The position numbers and the translations under genes were made by a program. A DNA stretch of 64,000 nucleotides from IMG/VR virus record IMGVR_UViG_3300034071_001405, positions 1 through 64,000 of that record; one strand, 5' to 3'. The notes beneath the pieces were generated by a model. It saw only the letters and a program-made list of their open reading frames with translations, did not search any database and was not told the DNA's origin. Below are positions 2,698-64,000 of the stretch, in pieces (the stretch's first letter is position 1; every line of letters begins with the position of its first letter). The stretch comes from a virus.

Positions 2698-2881
2698 ACC
2701 ACAAAACAGAATTGAAGTAGAAACACCAAAAGGAAATGGTATAATTTGGTTAGTAATAGATTATGGTCATGAAACAGATACTATATACACAGTAATCTTA
2801 GATGACTCTGGAGAAATGTGGCAATACACCCACAAAGAAATTAAAGTAAAAAAGAACATAACATTTGGAAGAAAATGGTAA
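2684..2881 (+). CDS. Small beta-rich hypothetical protein
   Basis: A 65-residue protein with no family I recognise. Alternating hydrophobic and charged residues (for example GIIWLVIDYG and IYTVILDDSGEMWQYTHKEI) predict a small all-beta fold such as an SH3-like barrel. It overlaps the gene before it by 14 nt and the gene after it by 7 nt. Tight overlap on both sides supports it as a real gene in the pre-packaging operon. Function unknown. Confidence 0.65.
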   Translation: MKIFEPQNRIEVETPKGNGIIWLVIDYGHETDTIYTVILDDSGEMWQYTHKEIKVKKNITFGRKW

Positions 2882-3390
2882 AATTATTTGACATCGCAAA
2901 TGGGACCATCGTCCCAACAGAACACTGCTATACACTAGCCTTTCTGAAAAGAATCATGGAAGACTATCCTGACAGTTATTTGAACATCTATGCGTATTTG
3001 TTTTACATGACCTGTCCTAATCCTGACTTTAATCCTTTCTTTGATGTGCCGGAGAATGACAAAGAAGAACTCATACTATCACAACTTGATGTTGATTTTT
3101 CAACTGAAGATGATGCTATTGTGTCTGCTTTAGAACTGTGTAAAAAACTTTATGAGACACCAACTTACAGAGCATTTATGGGAATCAAACACATGGTTGA
3201 TAGACTTGCCAAATACATGGAAACAACAGCTATTGAACATGGAAGAGATGGTAATATAAACTCACTTGTAAATGTTGCAGCTAAGTTTGAACAAATAAGA
3301 CTGTCTTACAAAGGTTCTTTTAAAGATTTACAGGAAGAACAAAAAAGTTCAGTAAGAGGTGGACAACACGTTGCTTATGACCAAATGTAA
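2875..3390 (+). CDS. Hypothetical protein upstream of terminase
   Basis: A 171-residue, mostly helical, acidic protein. The first 60 residues look like a compact helical domain (YPDSYLNIYAYLFYMTCP). A second helical block (about 100-150) holds AFMGIKHMVDRLAKYMETTA and a conserved-looking NSLVNVAAKFEQIRLSYKG. Its place two genes before the large terminase, with a helical composition, makes a small-terminase-like or terminase-accessory role possible. Small terminases of crAss-like phages are poorly defined, so this is a guess from position. It starts within the end of the previous gene and is followed after 6 nt by the next. Confidence 0.65.
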   Translation: MVKLFDIANGTIVPTEHCYTLAFLKRIMEDYPDSYLNIYAYLFYMTCPNPDFNPFFDVPENDKEELILSQLDVDFSTEDDAIVSALELCKKLYETPTYRAFMGIKHMVDRLAKYMETTAIEHGRDGNINSLVNVAAKFEQIRLSYKGSFKDLQEEQKSSVRGGQHVAYDQM

Positions 3391-40086: not shown

Positions 40087-40108
40087 TAAAATAAAGTAAG
40101 AAACTTAC

Positions 40109-45700: not shown

Positions 45701-47690
45701 GTCAAATCCTGAAAACTTAAGAATAACATTGGGTAGAATGGCAGATGGCAAGTTTAAACATAACCTTATCAATCATGTGGACCCTTTGTTAAAACAAGCT
45801 GAACTTGCAGCTGAATTGATAATTATAAAACTAGGAATTGTTAATGAAAATGATAGAAGAGAACTGTTTAATGAGATGCTAAACACTGTGTATGAAAGTG
45901 AAAATTGGAAAAATCTAACAACTCTCATAAGTAATCCTGATTTAGGTGTAGCAAACGAAGATTACGCTCAAAAGACATACTCTGCATTGATTAAAGAAAT
46001 CTTAAAAAAAGAGCAAGAGTTAACACTAAAGTATAGTCCTAAAGAATACAACAATGATATTTCTCAAGAAGACTATGACAAAATCATTGTTGAAGGAAAG
46101 ATTGACACAACAACAAAATATCTAATTGCAGCCAAGTTATCAAATGGAACTAAGTTGTCAGAACTTGAACAAAAGGTATATGATATACATAAGTTGGAAA
46201 TTGACAAAGAAGTAGATTTACCATCAGATGCTAATACACCTATTGCAGCAGACACAACAACCATAGAAAGTGGAGTTACCGCTGAAACAATAATAGAAGA
46301 TGAAATTCCTGAAGCTATTATACCTATTCCTTATATAGATGAGAATGGTGAGATTTCAGAAGACCCTGCTGAAACTGCAAATGCACTAAAAGCTGATATA
46401 GAAAGAAGAAGAAAAGAAGAATACGCTAAAATTGATGCAAAATATTCAGAACAAATAGAAGCATGGGAAAAGAAAAGAAAAGAAAATATTGAAAGAACTG
46501 GATTAGCAGGTGATACTAGAGCCTTGGATGCTCTAAAAGGACTAGTCTATAATGCTAAACAAAAAGTAGATGAAATCTTAAATAAAGAATTAGATGAATT
46601 AGATACTATTGAAGATAAAAAAGAAGATATAAAAAACGCATTAGATTATATTTTAACTGGTAGATATAACGGTAAAGCTGGAAGAAAGAGACAATCCACT
46701 GAAGTAGGAGAAAAGATAGCACAAAAAATAGCAACAGGCTTAAGTAATCAAGGATTAATAAAACAAGACGGAAAGTTGTTTTCAACTTTAGAGGGGGACA
46801 ATCTAGGGGTAGCTTGGTCGGTAGGTAAGTATTTTGCTGAAGAATTTAAAAATGGATTTGAAGCAGAATTAGCAGCTTTAAACACACCTGGACTAAGTGT
46901 CCAAGCTTCTACAGAAACAATACCATCAACAACTACAACAAACATGGTGGATGTCATAAGTGAAAATGAAAATTTACCTGGGGAATTTGTTGATGAATCA
47001 TTTTTTGGTATTACACCTACTGAACCTGTTATAGAAGAAGAACCTGTAGTTACTCAACAAGAAACACCATTTGCACCTCAAGGAAATTTAGAAGAAGGAT
47101 ACGATGTAGTTGACATAAATAACAATAGTGTTAACCCTGAAAAGTTTAAATCTGAAGAAGAAGCTGCTGTACTTGCAGAAAGTTTAAATTCTACACGTGT
47201 TGATTTGGATTTTGTAAAATCATTCTTAGGAGCATTACCTGTAGGAACAGAAACTGAGATGACTAATAAAATGCTAGAGATTGGACTAAAGTCAATGAAC
47301 GCTTACAACAAACGTAAAGGTACTAGTCATGCTACATTAGAAGAATACTACAACACAGGAGATGGCAGATTTTTACTAGAAGCAAACAGAGAGGCTTTAC
47401 TCACTGGTAAACCTGTAAACTACAATAGAAAAAAAGCTAAAGTTTCTGGATTAGTCATATCAGAAACACAAGTACCGTTGTTTGAAACACCATCAACAGG
47501 TAGAGCTACAAGTTTAACTCTGCAAAGTTTAGAAACACTGTATGCTAAAGTTTTAGAATTTAGAAAAGAAGCAGCAGAAAATTCAAATAATTTTAGTAAA
47601 TTTGTAGAGACGGAAAAGGTGGCTCAAACTCCAGTGACAGAATCCTCTATAATAAACAAGCTTCAAGAGATTTCTAACTGTTTCTCTTAA
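42762..47690 (+). CDS. Giant cargo protein with hydrophobic segments
   Basis: A 1642-residue protein just before the RNA polymerase gene. Residues about 187-225 form a long hydrophobic Gly/Ala stretch (FALGTFAGIGLEIAADVAIT), and another lies near 557-572 (FLMGALTGSLISIP). Both could insert into or cross a membrane during DNA entry. The region around 500-560 is rich in alanine and glutamine (FQVSEGIQENMQETSAAAWK). The second half is charged coiled coil, then acidic proline-containing linkers (about 1150-1190 and 1390-1440), then a small C-terminal domain (KSFLGALPVGTETEMTNKML). No enzyme motif is recognised. In crAss-like phages the gene before the polymerase usually encodes a virion protein, which agrees. 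Confidence 0.65.
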   Translation: MIDNTFDFGMENAAGLGNKPVPMNDFSAAFNQMNSETSDRMLSDNSRPMSLMESLNAPVGPKTMTYVPNSAVDMFRYQEGFKSQYFNPLDTSNYEKWADKETFGSALNKGFDSFGHKFGNTFIDYWKGYGRMADALVHMDWDRMRPDEATLADQYYKDQIDMNKNFVFEKPENEDSILSKRTMSEFIGNAGFALGTFAGIGLEIAADVAITFLSGGAGVVSFGGTAAKLAATQTAKQAAKSGFRFADALTDIGKGFSYGNKSAEEISAASKVIANMDEASAIANGSRSALRDSMGETFSVFTNHLFNITKSKNFSEVSANLLKSTPLLGTGIRSAEKLAAASRAGATTGELIGVGLQGARRVAQELNMSATEASFEAVTSYGDTLDKMAQQYKIDNNGAVPSPEEFEEMRKLAISASSANYNTNMALLLATNKIQFGNLFNRFVPANKYMNEVAENLLVVEGKAGTGIFRKDGFLGAYGLIGKVGKEFGKKEAAYQFSKAFAKDFLKFQVSEGIQENMQETSAAAWKDYYAGQFNSTEMSLSEAFGEGASQQFTKQGLKTFLMGALTGSLISIPTSITSKSLEAANRAVINRQYANNPGSNPLIAAEAQLDKNLDILNTSLKQLKEGKFKDKVFNFSAQIDAAQEQAESASKGLRYEFENGKDNALLAAVASAQKTNSIDVLYRAVKSMGQDMTNEDFEKSFGVKLEDTKYRTPSEFSEAVAKDIKKYSDTMEGIRTKVKSQLADPFEFAEGSRNRYVATLLRSAQEDAIQVLSMNAIKGDMSAKRAKQVADDLLSIPGMSRSSDFALRVLTNPGSIEGEIGNLLGEIKILRENIEAEGIEAQTKKELKEQLSLKLEEYELIEKWKGYWENRQVVVGTNEDDEEVTKESILDIFKGKTIEKTQTVKDENGNDVETVDRTYDPTDPEVIETFRQLMNIKNRQSGSNEVISEASMRDGFQKIYDYIRLDRDTKDYMRSVDVLSNPENLRITLGRMADGKFKHNLINHVDPLLKQAELAAELIIIKLGIVNENDRRELFNEMLNTVYESENWKNLTTLISNPDLGVANEDYAQKTYSALIKEILKKEQELTLKYSPKEYNNDISQEDYDKIIVEGKIDTTTKYLIAAKLSNGTKLSELEQKVYDIHKLEIDKEVDLPSDANTPIAADTTTIESGVTAETIIEDEIPEAIIPIPYIDENGEISEDPAETANALKADIERRRKEEYAKIDAKYSEQIEAWEKKRKENIERTGLAGDTRALDALKGLVYNAKQKVDEILNKELDELDTIEDKKEDIKNALDYILTGRYNGKAGRKRQSTEVGEKIAQKIATGLSNQGLIKQDGKLFSTLEGDNLGVAWSVGKYFAEEFKNGFEAELAALNTPGLSVQASTETIPSTTTTNMVDVISENENLPGEFVDESFFGITPTEPVIEEEPVVTQQETPFAPQGNLEEGYDVVDINNNSVNPEKFKSEEEAAVLAESLNSTRVDLDFVKSFLGALPVGTETEMTNKMLEIGLKSMNAYNKRKGTSHATLEEYYNTGDGRFLLEANREALLTGKPVNYNRKKAKVSGLVISETQVPLFETPSTGRATSLTLQSLETLYAKVLEFRKEAAENSNNFSKFVETEKVAQTPVTESSIINKLQEISNCFS

Positions 47691-47722: not shown

Positions 47723-50700
47723 ATGGCATGTCAAATTCAAACTGACAAGTACACTGATGTTGTACTAGATCTAATTAAGTTAGACTCTTCACTATACACT
47801 AACTTTGATAACGCAGCAGCGTTCATCTTGAAGAGCGGATTATCACCTGAACAAAAAATGATGGCAGTGCATAACATTGCACATATCTACAATGGTTTAG
47901 CAGACTTGGACCCTGAATACTTTAAAAAGGGTAAGGTAGCAGATGTAATTAACATTGTAACCATGATGGAAAATCCACAAGAGTATGTGCAAACAGCATC
48001 TGAATTTTTCAATGTGAAAAAAACTGCACCTCTTAAAGTATCTTCAATCATTGACAAAATTGATGCACTTGGTGGTATGACTTCTGTAAATCGTATGGAC
48101 TTGAATGGGCCAGACGGTGTGTTAAACACTATAAAGAATTATTTTGCTGTTACTACTTTTGAGAATCTTGATGAAAGAACTAAGTTACTAGAATCTCTAT
48201 CTGCATCATTGCGTGGTCAAATAATTGACAGAGCTGATGAACAAGACCATAAAGATTTCTTATTGGGACTTATTGATGATACAATGGCAGGACTTGATAA
48301 GAAGTCATTCTTTATTCCTATTTCTGAAATAGCAGATGTTGCTGGTCTTGACAATGTACTTGTTATTTTAAAGTCAGAACAAATGGTAGAAGCTTTAAGA
48401 GAAAACGATAAACTCTACAAGTTAAATCCTGACAACTCTCTTGAAGAGATTCCTGCAGACCAAATTGTTTCTGTAAAGGACGCACGTTTGTCAGATCGTT
48501 CTACAAGTAATGCCGGTGAGCATGTGTTCTATGAAGACACAATGCTTTCTAATTTTAAAGTTGTTGCTGTTAACCCTGAAGAGTCTGGTATTGTATTAAA
48601 CAAACTAGATGAAATGCGTTCACCTTCATCAGCTATAAGAATTAAAGCTGTACGTATTAGTGATGTTGCTGACAAACGTATTGAGCGTATTCAAAACGTA
48701 GATGCCTCTAACAAAGAAATGAGAATGTTGGCAAACCGTCAGCATGAGACTTTTGAGAATTCAACACAGGTTGCATACTTACAGTCAACATCAAATGGTA
48801 AAGTGTTAACACTATCACGTCCAAAAGCATCAGAACAAACATTTGTCATTGTTGGAGAGATTATAGGTTCAGGTGAATTGTTTTATTTGTATTCAACTGA
48901 AAACATGACATTTGTAAATTCAGATAATTCTACAGAACTAGTTGATTTTACAAACCCTGTACATTTAAAAGAAGTACAACGTTTGAGCGTCAAAGACAAC
49001 TTAGGTGTAAAATCACAACTAAGCGAACTTGACTTAGAACACATGTCTAATGCTGCGTCAATATATAAAGGATTTAAAGACTCTTTATTACCTCAGTTAC
49101 AAGCTCAGTTTGATGCAGGTGCAACTTCTGTTGATATAACTACTGATTTCAAAAATGTCTATGACATAAATCAAACACGTGGTAAAAAATCAAAAACTGT
49201 TTTAAGTTCAGAAATGGTTACTGACCCTACACTTTCTAAAACTTTAACTATTTTCAATAGAGACACAAAGCAAAGAGAAGAACGTAAGATACCTTTTATA
49301 TACAGTGCAGTAGAAGAAAAAGAATTTTCTTTAATAAATATGTTGCGCTCAAATGAATTAATTGAGTACACAAACACTGAAGGTAAAGTAAGACAAGTTT
49401 CTCAACTTACTTATGCTGAATTGCTAGGCTTAAAAGACAATGCTGTAAAAGAAATACTAAAAACCACAGACCCTAATCAAAAAAACTTAATGATTAAGTT
49501 TCGTCCTGATGGTACTATGACGTATCGCATTCTTGAGAATGTGCGTCAGTTAGACCAGATGGAAGAGTTTGCAAATTTTATAACATCGTTGAATGATGTA
49601 TTGTTATCAGGCAAACAACGTAACCAAGAAGTTGAGTCATTTGAAAAAACTCAATTTACATTTAGACCACAAACTTCTGGTAAGTTTGGAGACCGTCCAC
49701 TTTATGTTTCTTTTTCAACAAGTGCCCAAGGACGTCTTCAAGTAGAAATTAGACCAACATCTCCAACCAACAGATATGGGTTCATAAAAGAAAAAGATCC
49801 TATTACAAACAAGTATAAAAATCAAGGTCAGTTTAATTTTGTGCTTGATGAAACTCTTATTGTCAATACTGCGCGTGCATTAAAAGGTGAGGGTAAACTT
49901 ATAGGTAAAATTAAAAGTGAATTTCCTGCACTAGCAAACTTTGACTTAAACAAACCTGAAGAACTTTTTGAGTTTTACAGAACTGTAAATAACATGACCA
50001 GGTTTACTTCTCCTCATCCTTTATTGCAAGAGCTTGCAAACAAAGTAACAGAAGTACAGGCAGGTTTTGCTCAAAGTTTAATTGACAATGTTATAAACAA
50101 GTTAGAAGAAAAAACAGCAATGTTTCCTCAGTTTATGAAAAATTTACGTGAGGATTTAACATATGATGGTGAATTTAGACCATACTATTTAGTTGCACGA
50201 AAATCAGATGATGGAACATTTAGAACTAATATTACATACTCACGTGGTTATACAAAACCTAAAGATGGTGTTGACTCATTGCAACGTTTTAAAACAAACT
50301 ATGACAACTATCTACTTGTTAATGCTGGTTTTTTAAGAATGAACATTACACCAAAAGAGGTTATTAGCATGAGTACTCCTGCTCCGGCTGTTGTAACTGC
50401 GGTGCAAATGGAACCTGTTGAAAAGGTGCATGTAAACAATCCTGCACAAAACATAACATCTACTGAAATTATAACTGATGAATCAGATATACCTGAAATT
50501 GAGTTGTTTAGTATTGCTGATGGAGAAATAGAATTAGAAACAGAACAAGAAAGATTACAAGCTGCAGAATGGTTGTCACAAACCTATTCACAACTTGGTG
50601 TATCAAAAGAAGAACTTTCTGATGCTATAGATTTATCTAAAGTAGAAGGTACTGTTCTTGGTGCAATAAAAGATCGTGTTATTTACTTGAACGACAAGAT

Positions 50701-53700
50701 AAAAAGTAAAGGTGTTATTTATCATGAAGCGTTTCACGGTGTGTTCAGATATTTAATGTCAGCTCCACAAAGAGAAGAACTGATAAACTTTGTCAGAAAC
50801 AATAAGACATATTCAAGTAAATTTACAGATACTGCTTTGCAAGAATTTGCAAAACAACGTAACTATGTTTATGACAAAGAACGTATGGCCAATTTGCAAG
50901 CAGAAGAAATCCTTGCTGATGGTTTTCAAAACTACATGAATGAAGGAGGTAAACCAAGAGGTATTATTGCCAAGTTCATGCAGATGTTAAAACGTATAAT
51001 AGAATTCTTTACAAAACATAGTAACTATATTGACAATGTTTATGGACGTGTTAAACGTGGTTACTATTCAACAGATGTAATTAATTCAGGTATTTATGAA
51101 AATGAAACTGCATTTGTACTTATACCTGGACTTAAAGAGATTATACCTAATACTGAAGGTACAGGTGTAGCACAAAATGTATCTTTTCTTAGCACAGAAG
51201 ATGCTAATCAGTTAGTGTACATGATGGCTCACTATTTTGTAAAAGACAATGCTGGCTTTCAAGGTGAAACATTTGAACAAAAATTTGACCGTATAGCAAA
51301 GACTGTTCTTGACTATGAATTTAACATGGACAAACTTATTGCTAAAAAACCAGAAATGCGTGATGAAATCATAAAGCGTTTTGGTAATACGTACAAGCAA
51401 TATAGATTTGCATTAGGTGCTAGAATGCTTGGCGAAACTATTCATGACATTAACCTTTCTGGTTTAGACCAGTATGATAAAAGAGAACTAGTCAACACAG
51501 TTGATAAAACTATTGAAAATGGTAAAGGAGAAGAGTCTAAAAAAATATTGATGAAGCTTGTTAAAAAAGAATACCAGTCTATAATGGCAATTCTTGATGG
51601 TAAAGAAGTAGATGAAGATGAAATGTCTCCTGAACTAGTTGAAGAAATGTTTGATGAAGATGGTGCACCTGTTGTTAGAGATAATGATGAAACAGGAACT
51701 GTTGAAGAAGAAACAGAATCTGAAGATTATGACAGTGGTCTTGGAGAACACAATCGTTTAGAGTCACAGTCAAGACAAATAAGACAGTTTTTCTCATCTA
51801 TAAGATACGAACAATATATTCCTGAGTTGGGTATTACAATACCAAGAATGATATCTGGCAACAAGATGTATTCATTACTGTTAAAACTTAATTCTGATAT
51901 AGATACTGACAAAAGCATTCAGCATATAAAAACAACAGCTGAAACTCAGCGTATGGATGGATTCTTAAGTACAGCAGATGATTTAGATGCTATATATAAA
52001 CAAATTGTCAATGACACTAAAATGGTGAATGGTGTTCCACAATCAAATCTACAGTTATACAATATGCTAGTAGATGTGTTTGATGGTACTGAAATTGACT
52101 ATATGATGACTGACGTCAAAACTAGAGAAAATACAAGTGATGGTATAACTACAGTTGAAACATATGATTACACTATAAAAGACAAAGTATTGTTTTCTGA
52201 CGTTAACAAACGTAAAAAAGATATTGTAGCTTCTATAATTACTAAACATGCTGAAATGGGTGGTACTAAAGAATATAAAGCTGCTGTACAAAAACTTATT
52301 ACTGGCATAAATAAAATTACAACAGATACCAAGTTTATTTTAAGTGATGACATTAGTCAAGGAGACCGTTTAAACAAACTTACTGAAGAATTACATGCAA
52401 GTATGGCAGCAGTAGGTGTTAATGTTCCTAAGTCACTTGTGAGATTATCTATTTTAGCAATAGATAAAACAGAAAACATGGTTACACATAATCCTGATGA
52501 GTTTCAACCAAGTGTGTTAGAACATTATGAAAATCATTCTAAGTTTGTTAGTGAAAAAAAATACCTTGAAAAAGAGTTTTTTACTGACATGGCAGTAATA
52601 TTTACTAAAGCTGCAAAAGATTCTCATACTAAATTTGCACAAACGTTAGATGATAAAAATATTTCTGACACAAACGTTAATCGTTTCAACTCCATATTAG
52701 GTAAAGCATCAGTTTACATTATAAAGTATGACCCAACTGAATTACAATCAACTGTGTTAAATGCTGAAGGCAAACCTATATATCGTTATATAAAGCATAC
52801 GCCTGCTACAACAGTTGCTCAACTTTTAAGAAGTAAAGGTTTAGAAAAAACTTTAGCAGAAGATCCATACTTTAAATCACAGTTAGAAGACTTCTTTAAG
52901 GCTAATCCAATGATGGGTGGCATTTTAGAAAAGGATGATTCTGAATTAACTAAAAAAGTAGAAGTAATGCTAAACAACTTCAAGTTTGGTTTATATGGAG
53001 GTGTTGCACAAACGTTTAACAGCAAATTCAAACAAGGTAAAAGTTTTAAAAACATTGATGATAAAACAATGTACATTGTGCATCTTTTATCTTTCTTAAA
53101 TAGAACTACTTACAGACAAGTTGTAACTGACAAAGACGGTGTTGAAAAAGAAGTTGAAGTAGAAACTTTCATGCGTTCTTTTACTCAGCTTGAGGCATCA
53201 CAAACAAACTTTTTAATGACAGCAATGTATGAAAATTATTCTGACACAAAAGGTTTAGTTAAAGATGCTGCAGGTCGTATTAAAATCACAGGTCTTCTAG
53301 AAGGAGTTGTTAAACAGGAGTATAAACGTATTGCACGTGAATGGGCAAACAGAGAACAAAACAAAAAAGATTTTGACAGTCGTGCAAGTAACAAGTTGCT
53401 GTTGAAATACAATGGTGTACTTTCTAAAGAAGATGTTACTAAGTCTGATGTAGAAGACAAAGACTTAAGAGCTTATAAATTCAACAAGCTAGCAGATTTC
53501 TTCAAAGCAAATCCTGAATTATATGCTAACACAGATCAAAATGGATTGTTTGATTTTGCCAAAGAAAATACACCTTATGAAGACATACCTGTTGAAGTTA
53601 AAAATGCTTTATTAGATGGTTTAAACCAATATGCTTTAAAATCTTTAGAAACACACATAGATAAGTTAACTGACCTTCAAGTAATAAACAAAAGAACAAC

Positions 53701-56700
53701 TCCAAAATTTGTTAAAAAAACAGTACTTGACCCTGCAACAGGACTACCTGCAAAAGTAAATGGTAAAATAGAATACTATTATGGTCCAAAAACAGATGCT
53801 GAAGGAAATGTTGAAAGTCCTTTTGAATATTACGATTCTTCATTGATTGCCCCATTGTTAAAAAAAGACAGCAGACCTTCTGTTAACATTATTGACAGTT
53901 ATCAGAAAGTAGGTGTTGGTAGTTTTAATCAAGTTGGCGGTGTACAATCTGGATTTTCTAATCTTGAAGGTTTAGTACAAGACGCGTTCTTTAACTTCTG
54001 GGCTAACTCGCTTGTGTTTAATGATTTGCTTGATGGTGACTCAGCAATGAACGTAAAGGATTCTGTTGATTATTTCAAACGTCAAAAGAAGAATTTAGCA
54101 ACTGGTAGTAATATGAAACAAGGCACACACCGTGTTGCTGTAATGAATACTATTACAGGTTACATAAACAACAGATATCCTGAGTATGGGCCTTTCTATT
54201 CAGTTGATGAAATAAAAGAGTTTTTTGCAGATAGAACTGATATTTCTGATGAGGTAAAAGAAGAAGTCATAAATGCTTATGGTACTAAAGGAATGATGCA
54301 TTACATTTTTGATGGACAAAGTACATCTTCTATAATGCACCAAATGGACATGTATGAAACTCTTGGTAGATTAACTCCTGAAATTAAAGAATTGCTTATT
54401 GAAAAACATTATCGCAAACTAAATGAAGAAGAAGTAAAGTTGATGCAAAGCTATAAAATAGTAAACAACCCTAAGAAAACTGTGACTGCATCACGTAACT
54501 CATATCACAAACAATCTGAAAACTACATTGATCGTAATGATGTGAGCTATATGGAAATACCAAAAGACATTCTTAGTCAGGGTAGTGAAGCTATAAAAGA
54601 TTACAGAAATCAACTTCATGATGTTTTTAAAGGACTGTACAATGAAATATATACTCTGAGAAAAAAGATACAAGATGCTAAGTCTATTGGTGAAGACCCA
54701 TCAGAATATGTTGATGCTATTCAGAAAAAAACAATTACTATTCACTCGTTCTATAAGCCAATGGCTCATCGTGAAATATTGCACAACTTGTTAAATGCAA
54801 TGGAGTATCATCAAATAGATCAGCTAATGGACACTGAAGCGTCTAAAAATGCTACAATGCTACCTATAGATTATTTTGCAGAAAGCAAAGAACTTGGAGC
54901 TACTAAACCATATATTGACTTAGCGTTTTCTTCTTTTGAAGTAGAAAACAGATACAAATACTTGCAAGTAGAAACTTCAGGTGTCAAAGACATTGTCAAA
55001 TTTTCTGTTCAAAGTAAAGCTTTGATAGCTGCGGATTTGATAAATTTATTGGATATTGCTAACGCTTCAAATAAAGAAGTAACAGAAAGTGACATAAAAG
55101 CAATAGAAAAAGTAGCAGAAGCTTTAGTTGAATATCAAGAAACACTGAAAGAATTAGGTGTATCTAACTTAGCCAACTTGAAAACTATATTAAGAAAAGA
55201 TGGTGACTTTGATATTGGAAAAGTGTTTAACCTTATAAGAGAATCTTTAGAAAGTCAAGGGGCCCCTTCTTCTACATTAAAGTTGTTTGATGTTACTCCA
55301 GAAGGAACACCGGTGCATTCACCTAACCTTCCTGGTATTCGTAATATGTTAGAATACTACTTCTTCTCACAATACTCAAAACATATTACTGATGAAAAAG
55401 GTTCAGGATTCAAACACATCCACATGTCATCACTAGGTTACAATGTATTAACTGATGAAAATGGAAAAACCTTATTAGATAAAGAAGGTAACATAGTTAC
55501 AACAGATATATACAGACGTAATCCTGCAAAGTATCCAAATGCAAAATTTAGACCGCTAGGTGTTACAACAGAAGTAAAAGATGGAATAACTACATACTAT
55601 GTAGAAGCTATAGTTCCTCTACCGTTTTTCAAAAGTGATGAGCATAGAGCTTTTTACATGAAGAACTTATCAAAAATGTTTGGTGTACGTATTCCAACTG
55701 AGGATAAACGTTCAATGATTGCAATGAAAGTTGTAGACTTTATTGACAGTTCAAACCTTACTGGTGTCATTGTACCTCACATTGCACACTTACTTGCAGG
55801 TTCTGACTTTGACGTTGATGCGCTCTATGGTCAAACATACGCTCACTATTTTAATGCAGATAATAAACCTGTTCTTTATGGTGATTACAGTGCATATAAA
55901 TCTGAGTCAATTGGTAAATTTGTAGAGTTTGTTCAATACATGGCCAGTGACAAAGACATGAAAAAAGCAGTTGATGCTGAAAGAGAAAAGATTAGTGAAA
56001 TAAAAGTTGATGACTATGTTGGTTCTACAAATGCAAGACTTCTTGCTGGTTATGTTTCTGAGAGACTAGTTGATGATGAAGACACGTTAAGAGAATTTGA
56101 TGCAATACTAGATGCATTTGAAAAATATGGTTTACCTGTAAACTTAGAAAACTTTGTAGCTAAACCTGAGTATGCTAAGTCAGTACGTCCTGTATATCAA
56201 AACGCAAACCTTGCTGCCAAACTGAAAATCCTAACAAATGAAGCTGTGTACAAATTCTTGTACATAAGTGAACGTTCATCAGTTGACCGTTTTATCAGCA
56301 TTGCTCAAGCATTTGGAAATGAAGTAGAAGAGTATTCAGGTCAACATAATCAGTACACTATTGATGGCGTTGTTACTACAAAGAAAACAACCAGCATGAA
56401 TAAAGATGGTATTGGAATTACAGCAAGAATAAACAAGTTTCTTGCATTAGCATCACAATATGGTCTAGAGTTAAAAAGTGAACAAGTTATATGGGCTTTT
56501 CAAAATGTTACATCTACTGAAGGTGACAACATAGATTTTCAAATGAAAAAGTACAATACCTTTGGTACACTTAATGACAATGATGAACGTGTTATTGAAC
56601 TAATAGGTAATATACTTGGGATGTTTGCTGATGGTGCTAAGAAACCTATTCCTGCAGCTTTATACATGAATCAAGTAAACGCAGGTGTAACTCTTGCAAT

Positions 56701-59700
56701 GGTAGGTGTAGGTTTACAACCTGAGTTTGCATTTGGTTTTAACTTCATACCTGAAATAAGAAACGCTGTAGATTCAGTATTGGCAGTACGTTCTGCTGTT
56801 AGTGAAAGCAATGGTAATAACTTTACATTCTTAAACAATGAAGTTAAGAATGAACTTAATGATTTAATTAGAAAAAATCCTAAAGAATTTGAAGCATTAA
56901 AACAACTAGGTGTTATCACAAACCAGTCACAAGCATATCGTGTAGTAGTTCAACGTGAAAATATCTCAATGGAGTTTGAAGCAAACAAACTTGATAAAGA
57001 AAAACTAAACAACAACACACTTACTAGTGGTGACATTGGATACAAAATTAAAGCTGTTGTAAAAACAGGAAGCATGGATCCTGCAACAAATAAAAAAGCA
57101 GATAAAAACAGCACTATTGATTTAACTGAAGTACAACAGCGTATGGTATTGTTGCAGATGTATGCAGACCAAGCACAACAAACATTTGCTATTGGACGTG
57201 CCGGTTCATTGTTAGACATGTTCAAAAAGTTAAATCCTAAATTCACAACTTTTGACAAGTTGTTAAACAACATTAAAGAGTTAAAAGATTCTACAGACAA
57301 AAGCATATTTACTGAAGAAAGCACTAAAAGAATTTTTGAAGAAAATCAAGTATGGCCACAGTTGCTTGCAGCGATGGAAGACTTGTATGAACAAGCTGGC
57401 AAATTATTTTTAGAACGTACAGAGTTTTTTGCACCAATCAAAAATCTTTTTGAGTCTGTATTTACAGATCATTCGCAAATTGCAAAAATTATCACTAGCT
57501 TTGTAGCAATACGTAAATATCAGATGTCAATGCCTGGAAGCAGAACATCTTCAAATGAAGCAATGAACAATCTGATAGCACAAGATGATAACAATCTCAT
57601 TGAAACATTCACAGCTGAATATCCTTTTACTAACACTCTTGGTAAAGAGTTAGAAGAAATGCAGAAGAAATATCCTACAAACAAGTTCTTACAAGTACTT
57701 CGTGTTGATAAAACAGAGAATACTGCAGTAACACCTTCTGGTAGAAATGTTAATGAGTCAATGATAAAGATGATTTCTAAAAGCAAAGCTAAAGGTAAAT
57801 ATGCAGATGAAATATCTGATGATGCTTATATGCTGATGTTAAAAGAAAACATGTTTATGAAAAAGTTGTTTTATCATGAAATGTTAAGAACAGGCCTTCA
57901 GTACACACCGGGTTCATTCTTGCAATTACTGAGTCCAGATTTACAACTTCCATTTTCTAAATACATCACTGAGTTTATCAGTAACTTAGAAGAAACAAAA
58001 GGTAACAGGTACAAACTTGTTGGTGCTATAAAAAATTCAATGGGCCCTGAGTTTACAGACCAAGATGTTTACAGCATGTTTGATGAATTGTTTTTACAAA
58101 TGGCACATGCAGCTACAAAAGAAATAGGTAATAACAGAATAAAAATTGTTGACAGATTTAGTTTCAAAGATAGCACTTTATTGATGCAGTCTTTCAAATT
58201 TCAAAAAGAAAATCCTAAAGAAAAATTTGATGTTGTTGCTGAAACTTTAAGACGTTTCATGGGACAAGCACCAGTATCTAAAGCTGAAGCATATACTGCA
58301 ACAAGTACAGACCCTAAAACAAAAAAGGCATATGAAGAAATTTTGATTGATATGTCAGTGCCGGGTCCTACATTACCACAAGTTACTGAAACAACAATGG
58401 CCGAGTTAGGTAAAAAACTTGGTGTTAGACCTGCGTTTGACGACCCAGGAAACTACATGTTCCCATTAATGTTTACCTTGGGTAAAAACACATATATGTT
58501 GCAAGGTGTTGGTGACCAAATGAATAACAAAAGCTTTGGTGAGTCAATGATTAAGTCTATTGTAGGTACTGGTAAATACATCAATGTTGGTCAAAAAGCT
58601 AAGTACACACTTGTACCAGATAAACTAACTACAGGTACAATAAGTTCAATAGGTCTTAATAAAGATGTTTCTGAGAAGTACATTGCATATTCTAACAAAA
58701 AAGCACGTCTTCCTTTTGAACCAGCCATTGAAGAAGTTGAAGTAGTTGAAAGAGAAGTAACAAGTTTTGGTGAAAGAATTATTGATGGTGTATATTTAAG
58801 AAAAGATAGTTTAACAAAAGAAGAACAGTTAGAAATGTTCCAATTGTTAAAACCTTATCTTGAACAACAAGCTACTAAATCAAACAAAGGAACTTTTGCA
58901 AATAAAATGATAGGTCTAGGTTTGAGATGGGATTACTTAAGTAACAATCCTGGAAGAACTGCAGTTAATATACCAAACATAATTGATCCAAAAAGTAAAA
59001 CTAAATATGGATATTTTACAGTTGCTGCTAACGGTGAACCTTTAGGAGCAATTCCTGCAAGGTTGAAACAACTCATGTCAAAAGCAACTGGTATAGATGC
59101 TACAAACTATGATGGTGCAATTATTAACATATATGATGACAAGACTTTTATATCTTCTCACAACGATGTTGATGAAAGTATAGATGCTGTAAAGTATCCT
59201 GTAATTGTTGCAAACATTGGTGGGCCTGGAAACTTTGCAATAGAAAGAGTAGGAATACAAAAACCTTTAGAGCTTAATGCAGGAGATTCTTACGTGTTTG
59301 GCTTAGATGGAAGTAATAGATCAGTATATCATAGAACATTTGCAAATGCACAAAAAGGATTTTTACCAGAAATTATTACCTCAAGTGATGGTAAAACTTA
59401 CAATGCTGGTTCTTATAGAATATCAATAACCTTAAGAAGAGTCATGCCATTAAGTGAAGGAATGCCTAAAACTCCTGCTAAAACAATTGTACCTTCTCAA
59501 GTTGAAACAACACCTGCTACTCAACCATCTACAACTGCTGAAATAGTTGAAGATGCACCAATAGAAGTAGAACAAACTGATACAGCAAATGAAATGGTAG
59601 GTACTGAAGATGCTACATCAATGCTTGGAGCAATGTTTGCTCAAATGCAAGAACAAGCTCAGACTACAACTTCTCAAGTAAATGATGCCACAATAAAACT

Positions 59701-60415
59701 GTCAACACCTGAAAAACCTATTTTTGTATACTCAGATGGTTCTGATATTAAAGGTACAGGTAGATTAGGATTTGGGGCAGTGTTTGAAAATGGTGGTGTA
59801 ATTTATGATTTATCAGGTACTGAAGAATCTGCTGAAGTTAAACGTTTAGCACAAATGCATCCAGATGCTAAGTTCTCAAATCCTACAATGGAAATGCTGG
59901 CTTTAGTGTCAGTGTTAAACACTTTCAAAAACAAAGCTGAACACATTGTTATCAATCAAGACTATACAGGTGCTGTAAACTATGATGGTTTATGGCAAAA
60001 AGCAGAAGGTTCTGCACAACGTCAACCTAAACCATGGAAGGCAAAAGAGGCCTATATTAAAACATTAGTTGATGCTGGTGTAAGAATCATAGACCAAATT
60101 GAAAAGAACGGTGGCAGTGTTAGAATTAACTGGGTCAAAGGACACTCTGGAAACAGAATGAACGACTTAGCTGATAGAGCTGCAAAAAGTAGAGAAATAT
60201 TTAACAATATTCCTAAAGCTTATGACAATGCAAACAAAACAATACTTGACATGCAAAATCTAAACATGACAGCTGCAGTACTTGATACATTGTATGAACA
60301 AAGTAGTAAGCGTATGACAAAAGATGCTTTTAGTAAAGCAGCTACAGAAATGGTAATCAACATGAGAGCAACAACAACCCCAGAAAATATCCTAGAAAAA
60401 ATTAAGTGTCTATAA
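47723..60415 (+). CDS. 4230-residue virion RNA polymerase polyprotein (peptidase-like, RNAP, AlkB-like and RNase H domains)
   Basis: A single uninterrupted 4230-residue gene. (1) A zincin-like site at about 960-1090: HEAFH (1001-1005) plus E1061/E1062 in AEEILADGF. (2) An acidic linker, 1293-1345. (3) The RNA polymerase: GSDFDVDALYG with DFDVD at 2695-2699, the DxDxD metal motif of the crAss-like virion RNA polymerase family (such as phi14:2 gp66), preceded by FGVRIP (R2656), which resembles the 'NRAPTLH' part of cellular beta-prime. (4) An AlkB-like 2-oxoglutarate/Fe(II) oxygenase at about 3730-3910: IINIYDD, H3813 and D3815 in SHNDVDE, H3870, then R3899 and R3905. (5) RNase H1 at 4000-4160: D4005, E4057, D4080, H4141 and D4151. 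The protein is expected inside the virion, starting early transcription after injection. Confidence 0.85.
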   Translation: MACQIQTDKYTDVVLDLIKLDSSLYTNFDNAAAFILKSGLSPEQKMMAVHNIAHIYNGLADLDPEYFKKGKVADVINIVTMMENPQEYVQTASEFFNVKKTAPLKVSSIIDKIDALGGMTSVNRMDLNGPDGVLNTIKNYFAVTTFENLDERTKLLESLSASLRGQIIDRADEQDHKDFLLGLIDDTMAGLDKKSFFIPISEIADVAGLDNVLVILKSEQMVEALRENDKLYKLNPDNSLEEIPADQIVSVKDARLSDRSTSNAGEHVFYEDTMLSNFKVVAVNPEESGIVLNKLDEMRSPSSAIRIKAVRISDVADKRIERIQNVDASNKEMRMLANRQHETFENSTQVAYLQSTSNGKVLTLSRPKASEQTFVIVGEIIGSGELFYLYSTENMTFVNSDNSTELVDFTNPVHLKEVQRLSVKDNLGVKSQLSELDLEHMSNAASIYKGFKDSLLPQLQAQFDAGATSVDITTDFKNVYDINQTRGKKSKTVLSSEMVTDPTLSKTLTIFNRDTKQREERKIPFIYSAVEEKEFSLINMLRSNELIEYTNTEGKVRQVSQLTYAELLGLKDNAVKEILKTTDPNQKNLMIKFRPDGTMTYRILENVRQLDQMEEFANFITSLNDVLLSGKQRNQEVESFEKTQFTFRPQTSGKFGDRPLYVSFSTSAQGRLQVEIRPTSPTNRYGFIKEKDPITNKYKNQGQFNFVLDETLIVNTARALKGEGKLIGKIKSEFPALANFDLNKPEELFEFYRTVNNMTRFTSPHPLLQELANKVTEVQAGFAQSLIDNVINKLEEKTAMFPQFMKNLREDLTYDGEFRPYYLVARKSDDGTFRTNITYSRGYTKPKDGVDSLQRFKTNYDNYLLVNAGFLRMNITPKEVISMSTPAPAVVTAVQMEPVEKVHVNNPAQNITSTEIITDESDIPEIELFSIADGEIELETEQERLQAAEWLSQTYSQLGVSKEELSDAIDLSKVEGTVLGAIKDRVIYLNDKIKSKGVIYHEAFHGVFRYLMSAPQREELINFVRNNKTYSSKFTDTALQEFAKQRNYVYDKERMANLQAEEILADGFQNYMNEGGKPRGIIAKFMQMLKRIIEFFTKHSNYIDNVYGRVKRGYYSTDVINSGIYENETAFVLIPGLKEIIPNTEGTGVAQNVSFLSTEDANQLVYMMAHYFVKDNAGFQGETFEQKFDRIAKTVLDYEFNMDKLIAKKPEMRDEIIKRFGNTYKQYRFALGARMLGETIHDINLSGLDQYDKRELVNTVDKTIENGKGEESKKILMKLVKKEYQSIMAILDGKEVDEDEMSPELVEEMFDEDGAPVVRDNDETGTVEEETESEDYDSGLGEHNRLESQSRQIRQFFSSIRYEQYIPELGITIPRMISGNKMYSLLLKLNSDIDTDKSIQHIKTTAETQRMDGFLSTADDLDAIYKQIVNDTKMVNGVPQSNLQLYNMLVDVFDGTEIDYMMTDVKTRENTSDGITTVETYDYTIKDKVLFSDVNKRKKDIVASIITKHAEMGGTKEYKAAVQKLITGINKITTDTKFILSDDISQGDRLNKLTEELHASMAAVGVNVPKSLVRLSILAIDKTENMVTHNPDEFQPSVLEHYENHSKFVSEKKYLEKEFFTDMAVIFTKAAKDSHTKFAQTLDDKNISDTNVNRFNSILGKASVYIIKYDPTELQSTVLNAEGKPIYRYIKHTPATTVAQLLRSKGLEKTLAEDPYFKSQLEDFFKANPMMGGILEKDDSELTKKVEVMLNNFKFGLYGGVAQTFNSKFKQGKSFKNIDDKTMYIVHLLSFLNRTTYRQVVTDKDGVEKEVEVETFMRSFTQLEASQTNFLMTAMYENYSDTKGLVKDAAGRIKITGLLEGVVKQEYKRIAREWANREQNKKDFDSRASNKLLLKYNGVLSKEDVTKSDVEDKDLRAYKFNKLADFFKANPELYANTDQNGLFDFAKENTPYEDIPVEVKNALLDGLNQYALKSLETHIDKLTDLQVINKRTTPKFVKKTVLDPATGLPAKVNGKIEYYYGPKTDAEGNVESPFEYYDSSLIAPLLKKDSRPSVNIIDSYQKVGVGSFNQVGGVQSGFSNLEGLVQDAFFNFWANSLVFNDLLDGDSAMNVKDSVDYFKRQKKNLATGSNMKQGTHRVAVMNTITGYINNRYPEYGPFYSVDEIKEFFADRTDISDEVKEEVINAYGTKGMMHYIFDGQSTSSIMHQMDMYETLGRLTPEIKELLIEKHYRKLNEEEVKLMQSYKIVNNPKKTVTASRNSYHKQSENYIDRNDVSYMEIPKDILSQGSEAIKDYRNQLHDVFKGLYNEIYTLRKKIQDAKSIGEDPSEYVDAIQKKTITIHSFYKPMAHREILHNLLNAMEYHQIDQLMDTEASKNATMLPIDYFAESKELGATKPYIDLAFSSFEVENRYKYLQVETSGVKDIVKFSVQSKALIAADLINLLDIANASNKEVTESDIKAIEKVAEALVEYQETLKELGVSNLANLKTILRKDGDFDIGKVFNLIRESLESQGAPSSTLKLFDVTPEGTPVHSPNLPGIRNMLEYYFFSQYSKHITDEKGSGFKHIHMSSLGYNVLTDENGKTLLDKEGNIVTTDIYRRNPAKYPNAKFRPLGVTTEVKDGITTYYVEAIVPLPFFKSDEHRAFYMKNLSKMFGVRIPTEDKRSMIAMKVVDFIDSSNLTGVIVPHIAHLLAGSDFDVDALYGQTYAHYFNADNKPVLYGDYSAYKSESIGKFVEFVQYMASDKDMKKAVDAEREKISEIKVDDYVGSTNARLLAGYVSERLVDDEDTLREFDAILDAFEKYGLPVNLENFVAKPEYAKSVRPVYQNANLAAKLKILTNEAVYKFLYISERSSVDRFISIAQAFGNEVEEYSGQHNQYTIDGVVTTKKTTSMNKDGIGITARINKFLALASQYGLELKSEQVIWAFQNVTSTEGDNIDFQMKKYNTFGTLNDNDERVIELIGNILGMFADGAKKPIPAALYMNQVNAGVTLAMVGVGLQPEFAFGFNFIPEIRNAVDSVLAVRSAVSESNGNNFTFLNNEVKNELNDLIRKNPKEFEALKQLGVITNQSQAYRVVVQRENISMEFEANKLDKEKLNNNTLTSGDIGYKIKAVVKTGSMDPATNKKADKNSTIDLTEVQQRMVLLQMYADQAQQTFAIGRAGSLLDMFKKLNPKFTTFDKLLNNIKELKDSTDKSIFTEESTKRIFEENQVWPQLLAAMEDLYEQAGKLFLERTEFFAPIKNLFESVFTDHSQIAKIITSFVAIRKYQMSMPGSRTSSNEAMNNLIAQDDNNLIETFTAEYPFTNTLGKELEEMQKKYPTNKFLQVLRVDKTENTAVTPSGRNVNESMIKMISKSKAKGKYADEISDDAYMLMLKENMFMKKLFYHEMLRTGLQYTPGSFLQLLSPDLQLPFSKYITEFISNLEETKGNRYKLVGAIKNSMGPEFTDQDVYSMFDELFLQMAHAATKEIGNNRIKIVDRFSFKDSTLLMQSFKFQKENPKEKFDVVAETLRRFMGQAPVSKAEAYTATSTDPKTKKAYEEILIDMSVPGPTLPQVTETTMAELGKKLGVRPAFDDPGNYMFPLMFTLGKNTYMLQGVGDQMNNKSFGESMIKSIVGTGKYINVGQKAKYTLVPDKLTTGTISSIGLNKDVSEKYIAYSNKKARLPFEPAIEEVEVVEREVTSFGERIIDGVYLRKDSLTKEEQLEMFQLLKPYLEQQATKSNKGTFANKMIGLGLRWDYLSNNPGRTAVNIPNIIDPKSKTKYGYFTVAANGEPLGAIPARLKQLMSKATGIDATNYDGAIINIYDDKTFISSHNDVDESIDAVKYPVIVANIGGPGNFAIERVGIQKPLELNAGDSYVFGLDGSNRSVYHRTFANAQKGFLPEIITSSDGKTYNAGSYRISITLRRVMPLSEGMPKTPAKTIVPSQVETTPATQPSTTAEIVEDAPIEVEQTDTANEMVGTEDATSMLGAMFAQMQEQAQTTTSQVNDATIKLSTPEKPIFVYSDGSDIKGTGRLGFGAVFENGGVIYDLSGTEESAEVKRLAQMHPDAKFSNPTMEMLALVSVLNTFKNKAEHIVINQDYTGAVNYDGLWQKAEGSAQRQPKPWKAKEAYIKTLVDAGVRIIDQIEKNGGSVRINWVKGHSGNRMNDLADRAAKSREIFNNIPKAYDNANKTILDMQNLNMTAAVLDTLYEQSSKRMTKDAFSKAATEMVINMRATTTPENILEKIKCL

Positions 60416-60418
60416 CCT

Positions 60419-63400
60419 ATGAATGAAACATGTCCTAATATAAATACACCAGAGTGGAAAGCTCTAGTAAGTGCTGTTGGTGATGGTAATGCTAATACAG
60501 CATATGGCCTAAACAGTAATAAAATACCAACAGTTGAAAAAGCACGTGAAATTTTAAGCAAGTTGAAAACTGAAGAAAAAGATGAACAATTTACAAAGAG
60601 TTCAGATGCTTTTAAGTTAGAACGTGCAAGAGCTCAAATGACTGTTCTTGAACGTGCAAGTTTTTCTGCAAACGGATTGCAAAAAGAAACACTCAAAAAG
60701 CTGATTGTAATGAACAAAAACCAACAAGAGTTTTTAAAAAACAACCTAGAGTTGGCTAGAAAAGGTATGCCCACAATAAAAACACTTTCTACATCATCAT
60801 ACATTGGTTCTTCAGATTTTACAGGAGATGCAAAAGCTTATGAAGCATTTAAGTATTTTGGTACATTTGAGCATGAGGTCTTAGAGCTTGGTCAAATGGA
60901 AAGTTTAAAAACAGGTGTTAATATCATGCAAATTCTTACAAGAGAATATTTTGATAGTACACTTGAGAACTACAAAAAGAAAAATCCTTTCTTTATTGAA
61001 AACCTTAGTGAAGATGAAATGTATGATATGACCATAGGTCTTGCTAAGCACATTGATGTTTTAAATGACAAAGGGTATCTAATACTACCAGAGATTACAG
61101 TAACAGGAACAACACGTACAGGTACAACAGTTGTAGGACGTATAGACTTGTTGTTAATAGACAGTCAAGGAAGAGTTAGTATTTTTGACTTTAAAACAAA
61201 AAAGGTAAAAAACTTAGTTTACACTGATCAACTGACAGGTAAAAAAACAATCAATAAAGAATATGCCTTTAATCATCTAGCAATACAAACATTTGGTATA
61301 GATAACAAAACTCAAACTGTAATGACACTTAAAGGTCAAAATCGTACAGCTTATGACACATGGACATTACAAACTAAGGTTTATGAAAACATGCTAATAC
61401 AAAATGGTCTTAATGTAAAGGACCAAAACATCTTAGCTTTAATGTATCAAACAACAGATGAAGGTGTGTTTGAAGGTTCTGCAATTCACATGTTTGAAGA
61501 ATCAAATTATTATGATTATGCAAATACAGCAGCAATTCCTGACAATAATGGAAATTGGAAAAATGAACCAAATGCAAATTTTCAAAAAATAAAAAACTTG
61601 CGTGACACCGTAGATTATGAAATGCCAATAGCTGATGAATCTGTTGAAGAATCTAAAAAACGTTTTGATACGCGTAACTTAAAACTCAACTCAAAACAAG
61701 ATGTGATGTTGAAAAACAGACTTCAGGAATCAGTTAACTCAGAATTGCAACAAGTATTAGATAAGTTAAGTAGTGTCAAAAAAGAAGTTGACCCATTACA
61801 ATATGAAATACTATCAACTAGACGTGAAACATTGAGAAGATTTCAGGACGTTCTTAAACGTACTGAAAATGACAGCGATTTATCTTTAGCTATTAACTTT
61901 TCTCTTGCATTAGATGCTGTAGAGGATGACTTAATACAATTGTCAAATCTGGTAGACAAAGCAATGGAAAGTTTCAAATTAAACAAAGATTCTTATTCAT
62001 CAAAAGAAGGTGTTAAGATACGTGAAATTTATGAGAAAAGTCGTGGGATAGCTCAAGTATTCAGAACACTTCAAGAAATAGTAACAAGTGCAAAAGAAGA
62101 TCCAACTAATAAAACAATCATTGATGAAACACTTGAAAATCGTTTAACAAAAATTTATAGTGCACTTAGTGTAATAGAAGGTTCGTTTGTCCAAGTAGCT
62201 TTACCCACTGTTATACAAGTTCTTAAATCTCCTGGTGAAACAGTATTTGTTCAAGTAAATGCTGAAATGAAAGAAGGTCTTCAAACACGTTTACAAAAAT
62301 TAGAAAAAGAATTGACAAATCTTCAAGCTGGCAAACCTGCAAGTTTATTAAAAGGCTTAACACATAGAGCATTGCTTTTTGTTGATAAGGACTACAAAAT
62401 AAACATGGCTGAAAAAATGGCTGAAAAGTATGGTGAAGCTTCTGCAGATTTGATAGTTCAAATTCAAAGTAAGCAAAAAGAAATACTGAAAGTAAAATCT
62501 TTAATAGATGGTGGATTGCAATTTTCTGATGAAACATTAGAAAAATACATAAATGGTGTTACAGACCCAGCTTCTGATTTTTATGCTGGTAGTAGAGAAA
62601 CATTTACAGGAAGTTCATTATTGTCAGGTTTAGCACTTGACAAAGGTATTGCAGGTGCGTCAAATTCTGACTTAGCTATTTCTGCATTTACAATGATGCT
62701 TAAAAACGCTGAAGGTCAAGCACGTAACGCAATACAAAATTCTATTGCAGCAATGCAGTTTGACCAAAAACGTGATAAACTTTTACAGCGTTATTCAGTG
62801 AATGAGTTGAATGCTATGGTGAGTGAATCTAGAAAGTTTACGTTTATAGATAAAAAGACTGGAGAAAGAAGAACTATAAATCGTCTTTACATGAACAAAC
62901 CCTACAGTGAAGAATATGAGTCTACTTACAGAGAGTACAACATAAAACTAGGTGAGTTTAGAAAAGAAATTGCAGCTTTAAAAGTACAAAATCACACAAA
63001 GAAAAATACACCAGAAGGTGTAGCTGCAGAAAAAGCATACCTTGATAAAGTTTCTGAGAAAGAAAAATATCAAGATGAGTACATTCAGTGGATGTTAGAC
63101 AACGCAAGACTTCCTTATGTAGACAAGTTTTACTCTTTGCAAAAGTCTATGCCTAATGAAATACGTGACAAGTTACAAAAACGTTATTTAGAAATAGAAA
63201 CTATCACTTTCCAAGTGGGTAAAGGTAATGAGGTCTTGCTTGAAGAACATGACTTTGAACGTCTTGAAGAACTTGAACAAGAAATAAGAACATTAAGAAA
63301 AAATGCTAAAGACATTAATCCTGAGTATGCTGAATACATGGATGATTTTAATGAGCTGTTTGAGTGGGATACTAACTTTTCTTACTATGAACGTATGCGT

Positions 63401-64000
63401 AACAATGCTTTATCTAAATACAAGGACACGCATCCTGAAGAATGGGCAAAGTGGCAAAAGTCTAATGAGATAGTAAGACCAACTAAACGTCCAGAACTTC
63501 CAGAAAATCTTGTGCAAGGTAACAATGTTATGTATCAAGACCAAATAATGACTGTTAGATTTCAAAGACCTGAAGGTTCTGTAGAACTAGTAGATTCTGA
63601 TGGTGTATTGTTAGTTGCACAACGTAAAGATTTAGAGTCTCTTTCATGGTATGAACGTTTGAGTATTCTATATGAACAACGTGCTCAACTTTTATTAGGT
63701 GATCCTGAAGTTGAAGAGCTTGCAAAAGAACGTGGTAAAATACTTTCTCAATATAAAGTTGGAGGACGTCTTAGGCCTAAGTTTATGAGTGAAGATGATG
63801 TTACACGTCTTGATGAAATTGAAGGAATGCTTGAGATGATTTATGAAAGAAAGAAAAACTCAAGTAATGAATTTACAAAAGAACAACGTAAAGAGCTAGC
63901 ATTAATATCTACACAAATTAACAACTTAGTAGATAAAAAAGTATCTCAAGGATACATTGATGTATTTGAAAGTAATTTAAAAGTTCTTTACGGAGCACAA
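60419..64000 (+). CDS. Giant RNAP-associated protein with N-terminal RecB-like nuclease (partial)
   Basis: Starts at ATG 60419 in the context TATAACCTATGAA and is open to the window edge (1194 codons, no stop). Residues about 145-330 carry a full RecB-type PD-(D/E)XK site: G148 to H152 in GTFEHEV, GRIDLLL (D243), FDFKTKK (D257, K259) and QTKVY (Q318, Y322). The rest so far is long charged helices (about 400-1194), with EELEQEIRTLRKNAK as an example. It follows the polymerase by 3 nt. In crAss-like phages the RNA polymerase complex is encoded by consecutive giant genes, so this is probably a second polymerase-associated subunit with an added nuclease. The nuclease may process nucleic acids on entry; that is inference. 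Confidence 0.75.
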   Translation, partial: MNETCPNINTPEWKALVSAVGDGNANTAYGLNSNKIPTVEKAREILSKLKTEEKDEQFTKSSDAFKLERARAQMTVLERASFSANGLQKETLKKLIVMNKNQQEFLKNNLELARKGMPTIKTLSTSSYIGSSDFTGDAKAYEAFKYFGTFEHEVLELGQMESLKTGVNIMQILTREYFDSTLENYKKKNPFFIENLSEDEMYDMTIGLAKHIDVLNDKGYLILPEITVTGTTRTGTTVVGRIDLLLIDSQGRVSIFDFKTKKVKNLVYTDQLTGKKTINKEYAFNHLAIQTFGIDNKTQTVMTLKGQNRTAYDTWTLQTKVYENMLIQNGLNVKDQNILALMYQTTDEGVFEGSAIHMFEESNYYDYANTAAIPDNNGNWKNEPNANFQKIKNLRDTVDYEMPIADESVEESKKRFDTRNLKLNSKQDVMLKNRLQESVNSELQQVLDKLSSVKKEVDPLQYEILSTRRETLRRFQDVLKRTENDSDLSLAINFSLALDAVEDDLIQLSNLVDKAMESFKLNKDSYSSKEGVKIREIYEKSRGIAQVFRTLQEIVTSAKEDPTNKTIIDETLENRLTKIYSALSVIEGSFVQVALPTVIQVLKSPGETVFVQVNAEMKEGLQTRLQKLEKELTNLQAGKPASLLKGLTHRALLFVDKDYKINMAEKMAEKYGEASADLIVQIQSKQKEILKVKSLIDGGLQFSDETLEKYINGVTDPASDFYAGSRETFTGSSLLSGLALDKGIAGASNSDLAISAFTMMLKNAEGQARNAIQNSIAAMQFDQKRDKLLQRYSVNELNAMVSESRKFTFIDKKTGERRTINRLYMNKPYSEEYESTYREYNIKLGEFRKEIAALKVQNHTKKNTPEGVAAEKAYLDKVSEKEKYQDEYIQWMLDNARLPYVDKFYSLQKSMPNEIRDKLQKRYLEIETITFQVGKGNEVLLEEHDFERLEELEQEIRTLRKNAKDINPEYAEYMDDFNELFEWDTNFSYYERMRNNALSKYKDTHPEEWAKWQKSNEIVRPTKRPELPENLVQGNNVMYQDQIMTVRFQRPEGSVELVDSDGVLLVAQRKDLESLSWYERLSILYEQRAQLLLGDPEVEELAKERGKILSQYKVGGRLRPKFMSEDDVTRLDEIEGMLEMIYERKKNSSNEFTKEQRKELALISTQINNLVDKKVSQGYIDVFESNLKVLYGAQ

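Follow-up and report, generated by a model that had tools for sequence, protein, structure and literature searches.

A single gene of a crAss-like phage encodes what is, at a probability that we put at roughly 0.68, a virion-injected, polyvalent RNA polymerase of the crAss type, whose C-terminus forms an exchangeable slot for enzyme domains, filled here by an AlkB-like dioxygenase and an RNase HI. The gene lies on the plus strand at 47723..60415 of the window, as we call the whole 64,000-nucleotide stretch analysed here (positions 1 to 64,000 of IMG/VR record IMGVR_UViG_3300034071_001405, a linear record of 68,249 bases in which the phage genome may be incomplete). Its product, a giant virion-type RNA polymerase polyprotein, carries in order a zincin-like metalloprotease domain, a crAss-type RNA polymerase (RNAP) core, AlkB, RNase HI and a conserved tail; chance is excluded as the source of all four domains (zincin, RNAP, AlkB and RNase H).

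Results

An unbroken frame of ordinary length

The open reading frame (ORF) starts with ATG and translates into 4230 amino acids with no internal stop or frameshift, and its GC content is even from end to end. The initial annotation, drawn from the DNA letters, had described one unbroken 4230-codon gene combining an HExxH site, a DFDVD motif, an AlkB-like dioxygenase and an RNase H in one chain; frame and translation bear out the former statement, and motifs together with Pfam matches confirm the latter. Its remark that the length would be among the largest for phage proteins does not stand: crAss002 gp33 has 4245 and Fpv20 gp33 4419 amino acids, complete zincin-RNAP frames among relatives of the window protein reach 5243, and crAss-like polymerases attain ∼6000 (PMC10136315). 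For crAss-like polymerases, 4230 amino acids is an ordinary size. These relatives were collected from IMG/VR by two profile-guided scans and from GTDB genomes by a third, all of them pattern-based and not exhaustive.

A crAss-type polymerase core in a Crassvirales genome

The crAss-type RNAP region (residues ∼2080-3030; 53960..56812, plus strand) is supported by tblastn, BLASTP and alignments, and contains the DFDVD motif at residues 2695-2699 (55805-55819, plus strand). In alignments A1 and A2 the active-site context reads GSDFDVD, preceded by a RIPTE motif; the DxDxD active-site pattern is present in its conserved context. Matches of the core to crAss-like RNAPs reach E=2e-12 in tblastn, and BLASTP relates it to crAss002 gp33 (7e-17) and, over residues 2473-3017, to phi14:2 gp66 (E=4e-7), an active enzyme of solved structure. 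The link to the phi14:2 enzyme is pairwise only, and profile A2 matched no chain among PDB sequences; through this homology over residues 2473-3017, the protein is predicted to hold two double-psi beta-barrels in one chain. Pfam and PHROGs searches of the 4230-residue protein returned no match to a T7-type single-subunit RNAP. The terminase large subunit (TerL), portal and major capsid protein encoded in the window match crAss-type PHROGs, which places the phage in Crassvirales, and its TerL is ∼25% identical to those of crAss-like phages and Flavobacterium phages. The kinship of the core to crAss-like RNAPs supports the earlier reading of the protein as a crAss-type virion RNAP.

The next gene (60419..64000, plus strand, continuing to 66469 in the record) encodes 2016 amino acids and probably a second RNAP-associated subunit; its N-terminus resembles a PD-(D/E)XK domain (PDDEXK_1, E=6e-4, just below cut-off) and it matches the C-terminal part of crAss002 gp33 (BLASTP, E=6e-6). 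It is probably the third RNAP subunit of the crAss arrangement, kept separate. Upstream, the window also encodes a 1994-residue structural protein of the virion, in which a von Willebrand factor A domain lies internally (22864-28848; Pfam, E=4e-9), and four large late-block proteins of 1961, 997, 886 and 1642 amino acids (28848-34733 and 37093-47690), which have no Pfam or PHROG match and may be further virion cargo.

A zincin-like domain fused to the polymerase

The zincin-like metalloprotease domain (residues 921-1171; 50483..51235, plus strand) is supported by alignment, by its match to a crAss subunit and by an AlphaFold2 (AF2) model. Its HEAFH motif occupies residues 1001-1005 (50723-50737, plus strand), and an invariant Glu pair, E1061/E1062 (50903-50908, plus strand), provides candidates for the third ligand. 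In a 68-sequence alignment of polymerase relatives, the H, E, F and H of HE-x-FH never vary, nor does the Glu pair downstream, a pattern shared with zincins whose third ligand is a Glu, and the domain thus carries the HExxH-plus-Glu signature. The core of the model reaches a pLDDT of ∼90, and the best Foldseek match in the PDB, PprI, falls below significance (E=0.48). The HExxH region also matches crAss proteins annotated as an RNA-polymerase subunit (tblastn, E=5e-8), the type of crAss001 gp47, where the motif reads YHEAFH. Since this counterpart is a separate subunit, the window protein corresponds to a zincin protein of the gp47 type joined in one chain with the RNAP subunit. Zincin and RNAP are commonly joined in relatives: HE-x-FH occurs in 66 of the 106 frames with an RNAP motif, many of the remaining frames being fragments, and crAssphage gp45 is annotated as an RNAP-associated protein fused to a zincin protease.

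An AlkB relative and a polymerase-associated RNase HI

The AlkB-like 2OG-Fe(II) dioxygenase domain (residues 3689-3905; 58787..59437, plus strand) matches the whole of Pfam model PF13532, 2OG-FeII_Oxy_2 (positions 1-194 of 194), at E=1e-12, above cut-off, and the RNase HI domain (residues 3999-4156; 59717..60190, plus strand) matches positions 3-138 of the 141 in PF00075, RNase_H, at E=5.6e-11, likewise above cut-off; the missing profile matches that the initial annotation had named as grounds for its own dismissal are therefore found for both. Assigned by motif, the AlkB iron ligands (H3813/D3815/H3870) and 2OG-binding arginines (R3899/R3905, R-x5-R) are present, as is an intact RNase H DEDD set (D4005/E4057/D4080/D4151). 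The NCBIfam alkb model scores 22 bits (E=1e-4) against an equivalog cut-off of 231, and phmmer of the domain against E. coli AlkB structures gives a weak match (E∼0.02); judged by the equivalog score, the domain is a relative and not the AlkB orthologue. For the RNase H, a PHROG match (E=3e-16) accompanies an NCBIfam RNase HI match below the equivalog cut-off (E=2e-5). Single-sequence AlphaFold prediction of the AlkB-RNase H part gave a pLDDT of 35, and both folds are assigned from profiles and motifs.

Among the 38 records compared, only the window carries AlkB, which rules it out as a clade-wide feature; our scans, from which their pattern-based design may hide near-identical records, found no second AlkB-bearing contig, and tblastn of AlkB or of the joint C-terminus against named phages gave no match. 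Free-standing RNase H or AlkB genes were absent from 36 related virus records. The RNase H has a wider distribution, and its catalytic residues are kept across divergent virion RNAPs. A scan for its subtype returned eight viral loci, seven of them in the same frame as RNAP and the eighth a gene in broken pieces beside RNAP motifs, suggesting that, within the viral scan, the domain is one of a small family confined to such polymerases. It is missing from all of the ∼20 relatives nearer to the window and is 60-62% identical to the RNase H of two polymerases (L131 and L134) whose bodies are only 22-40% identical to that of the window; a similarity so far above that of the bodies points to module exchange. 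On the RNAP tree the trait requires at least five changes, a count that cannot separate gain from loss, and the deep branches L152 and L158 are long and of unsure placement. On contig L157 (L157:6909-9296) the polymerase gene is split into several frames around RNAP and RNase H, possibly by introns or frameshifts.

A C-terminal slot with fixed borders and variable contents

AlkB and RNase H lie between two conserved stretches. On the left, the polymerase body ends in a segment (residues 3566-3659; 58418..58699, plus strand) whose profile matches 47 non-redundant ORFs; on the right stands a 56-residue tail (residues 4175-4230; 60245..60412, plus strand), which ends in EKIKCL and whose profile is precisely C-terminal in ∼50 loci, with a near-invariant K-C-L at the exact C-terminus. 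The body is common to about 40 independent IMG/VR contigs, and relatives align to residues 1 to ∼3675 of the window protein at 36-54% identity, then break, and realign over the final ∼56 residues. The gap between body and tail spans 32-41 amino acids in six relatives (L013, L014, L096, L098, L100, L115), 163-233 in five (L093, L091, L015, L017, L022), 361 in L020, 515 in the window, 595 in L105 and 629 in L027. Two different contigs, L027 and L093, are 94-95% identical in DNA on either side of the slot, and L027 carries a clean in-frame insert of ∼460 amino acids without counterpart in L093, comprising an AAA_33/zeta-type P-loop kinase and a second domain without assignment; L174 and L178 form a second, smaller pair with and without insert.

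A DNA pattern scan for EKIKCL followed by a stop located the tail on polymerases or on tail-bearing C-terminal or neighbouring ORFs and nowhere else, and in one subgroup the tail ends a separate ORF immediately downstream of the polymerase (L019:12879-13472, L113:12713-13696, L120:12328-14265 and L144:12101-15772), the last of which carries a SprT-like domain by Pfam. The contig with this SprT-like domain belongs to a Spirochaetia MAG in GTDB and has a polymerase of the same clade, a hint to the host or a mis-binned phage. To the eye, the L113 ORF (the same as in L200) appears ART-like and that of L120 (L206) shows a nucleotidyltransferase-like GS...DFDIV motif, both without a Pfam match.

Other slot or C-terminal contents recognized by Pfam are an AAA_33/zeta-type P-loop kinase and DUF7831, and the C-termini of related polymerases beyond the clade carry NADAR, RecD-like helicase, PD-(D/E)XK and DprA-like domains, as well as ART-PolyVal at a sub-threshold score. 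Taken at the level of sequence, these comparisons show that slot contents have been gained, lost and swapped between phages while body and tail stayed. Further resemblances were seen by eye: an ASCH-like domain after the RNase H of L152, an FVFGSNPxG domain in L158 and L023, and in L021 a 2H-phosphoesterase-like pair of HxT/S motifs, with Pfam tRNA_lig_CPD below cut-off. In Fpv20 gp33 (L008:9569-22828), a tail-like stretch lies near the N-terminus, at residues 50-98 (E∼1e-8).

Discussion

Relation to known virion polymerases

The window protein shares with other crAss-like virion RNAPs (phi14:2 gp66; crAss001 gp47/gp49/gp50; crAssphage gp44/gp45) the G-S-D-F-D-x-D core, a zincin-bearing partner and a giant gene in the late block, and the next gene in the window resembles their third subunit. 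The zincin protein, RNAP and third subunit each have a gene of their own in crAss001, whereas zincin and RNAP are fused here; crAssphage joins RNAP to the third subunit, which the window keeps separate; and the window differs from both in its added AlkB and RNase H. A conceptual precedent is provided by the N4-like virion RNAPs, described as polyvalent proteins that unite an injected RNAP with a zincin MPTase, adjoining or fused, and variable enzymes (ART, lysozyme, RNase) (PMC5512222), and built on a T7-type RNAP unrelated to the two-barrel crAss type; the text of that study mentions neither AlkB nor RNase H nor crAss phages. With several unrelated enzyme domains and a zincin in one phage protein, the window protein is, as read from its sequence, a polyvalent protein as well. 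A virion RNAP of phage P23-45 (PMC10770324) is a comparably giant fusion, but joined to a tape-measure protein.

An injected RNAP with a zincin and extra enzymes is thus already published for N4-like phages, and what is unusual here is the C-terminus. Flexiviridae replicases carry AlkB on a polymerase polyprotein. So do Ty3/Gypsy elements of orchids (PMC9289625); these are a plant RNA virus group and a plant retroelement, and their polymerases are not known to be homologous to that of the window. The initial annotation had called a virion RNAP with dioxygenase and RNase H at its C-terminus a non-standard layout, and the C-terminal fusion is indeed unusual; zincin plus RNAP is common, and an RNase H on such polymerases is not unique. 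AlkB is unique in the set examined, and the exchangeable slot, as traced by sequence, is the more telling feature, one out of reach of the initial annotation.

A model for a putatively injected protein

Three crAss001 proteins, gp47, gp49 and gp50, were detected in virions by mass spectrometry (PMC10172136), the record annotation of phi14:2 g066 derives from MS/MS, and by analogy with these relatives the 4230-residue protein is expected to be present in the virion and delivered into the host. It would be synthesized late, taken up into the capsid and delivered together with the DNA, after which its RNAP would transcribe early genes. The zincin may process the chain or free parts of it. The tail may aid docking or packaging; encapsidation of the N4 enzyme depends on its C-terminal region (PMC5512222). 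The least certain steps concern the slot. RNase H would work beside the polymerase on its RNA:DNA hybrids, clearing R-loops or cutting transcripts down to primers, and action on the nucleic acids of the polymerase itself seems most likely because the subtype appears dedicated to polymerases. AlkB might dealkylate or demethylate the incoming template or the transcripts, and so reverse damage or erase methyl marks set by the host within the first minutes of infection; for this domain, either such repair or demethylation in cis or a role in counter-defence is considered most likely. AlkB requires O2 and would be sensible only in an aerobic host, which may count against our preferred explanation.

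Competing explanations

The most serious competitor, which we nevertheless hold to be tentative, regards the C-terminal enzymes as counter-defence cargo that rides in on the polymerase, is released by the zincin and acts on host immunity, with RNase H attacking RNA:DNA or guide hybrids and AlkB modified nucleic acids, as has been suggested for polyvalent proteins. It stays strong because the other cargo of the region is mixed and conflict-type in nature (NADAR, ART-PolyVal, DprA/SLOG-like, zeta/PNK-type kinase); the slot turns over quickly between sister phages, Iyer et al. propose such a role for polyvalent proteins (PMC5512222), and methyl-mark resetting has been suggested for phage AlkB (PMC7824862). 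Against it, the viral scan detected the RNase H subtype on polymerases alone, which favours work on the polymerase's products, and no linked host defence target is known. The recurrence of RNase H on several unrelated virion RNAPs could instead reflect replication start, with virion RNAP transcripts serving as primers that a tethered RNase H trims or removes, thereby linking early transcription to first replication, as proposed for group 1 jumbo phages, where phage RNAP priming is paired with primer removal by RNase H1 (PMC7824862). We consider this unlikely: most relatives have no RNase H and must begin replication otherwise, and the replication genes of the phage fall outside the record.

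It is more improbable still that the inserts are decaying fillers, kept only because the slot tolerates insertions. Fast turnover and the lack of any insert in some relatives would fit such decay, but AlkB and RNase H both retain their full sets of catalytic residues, and those of RNase H are conserved across divergent polymerases. Distinct genes run together by faulty assembly or sequencing, a danger the initial annotation had itself raised, would agree with AlkB being known from one contig only. We reject this as scarcely credible: the frame is continuous, the body is full length in many independent contigs, the conserved tail that follows RNase H recurs, in frame, as the very C-terminus of relatives, other contigs have this RNase H subtype fused at the corresponding position, and GC is uniform.

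The preferred reading, a polyvalent polymerase that is injected from the virion and bears an exchangeable slot, admits a bolder extension that we offer as a possibility, no firmer than the counter-defence proposal: the slot would be an effector-delivery port, with the tail as packaging or docking signal, into which each phage plugs enzymes of its own choice, to be carried into the cell on the first RNA polymerase. The window would then hold the first polymerase-tethered, virion-delivered AlkB demethylase, together with a polymerase-dedicated RNase H.

Biological implications

Few known viruses are as abundant as crAss-like phages, and to our knowledge almost nothing has been learned about what enters the cell with their DNA. 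Should the slot reading hold true, their polymerase doubles as a carrier of interchangeable enzymes, and sister phages with and without a given cassette make this reading testable. Tethering of RNase H or AlkB would also hint that the earliest transcription from an incoming genome is limited by R-loops or base modifications, and the slots of sequenced phages would amount to a list of early-infection needs, possibly including counter-defence.
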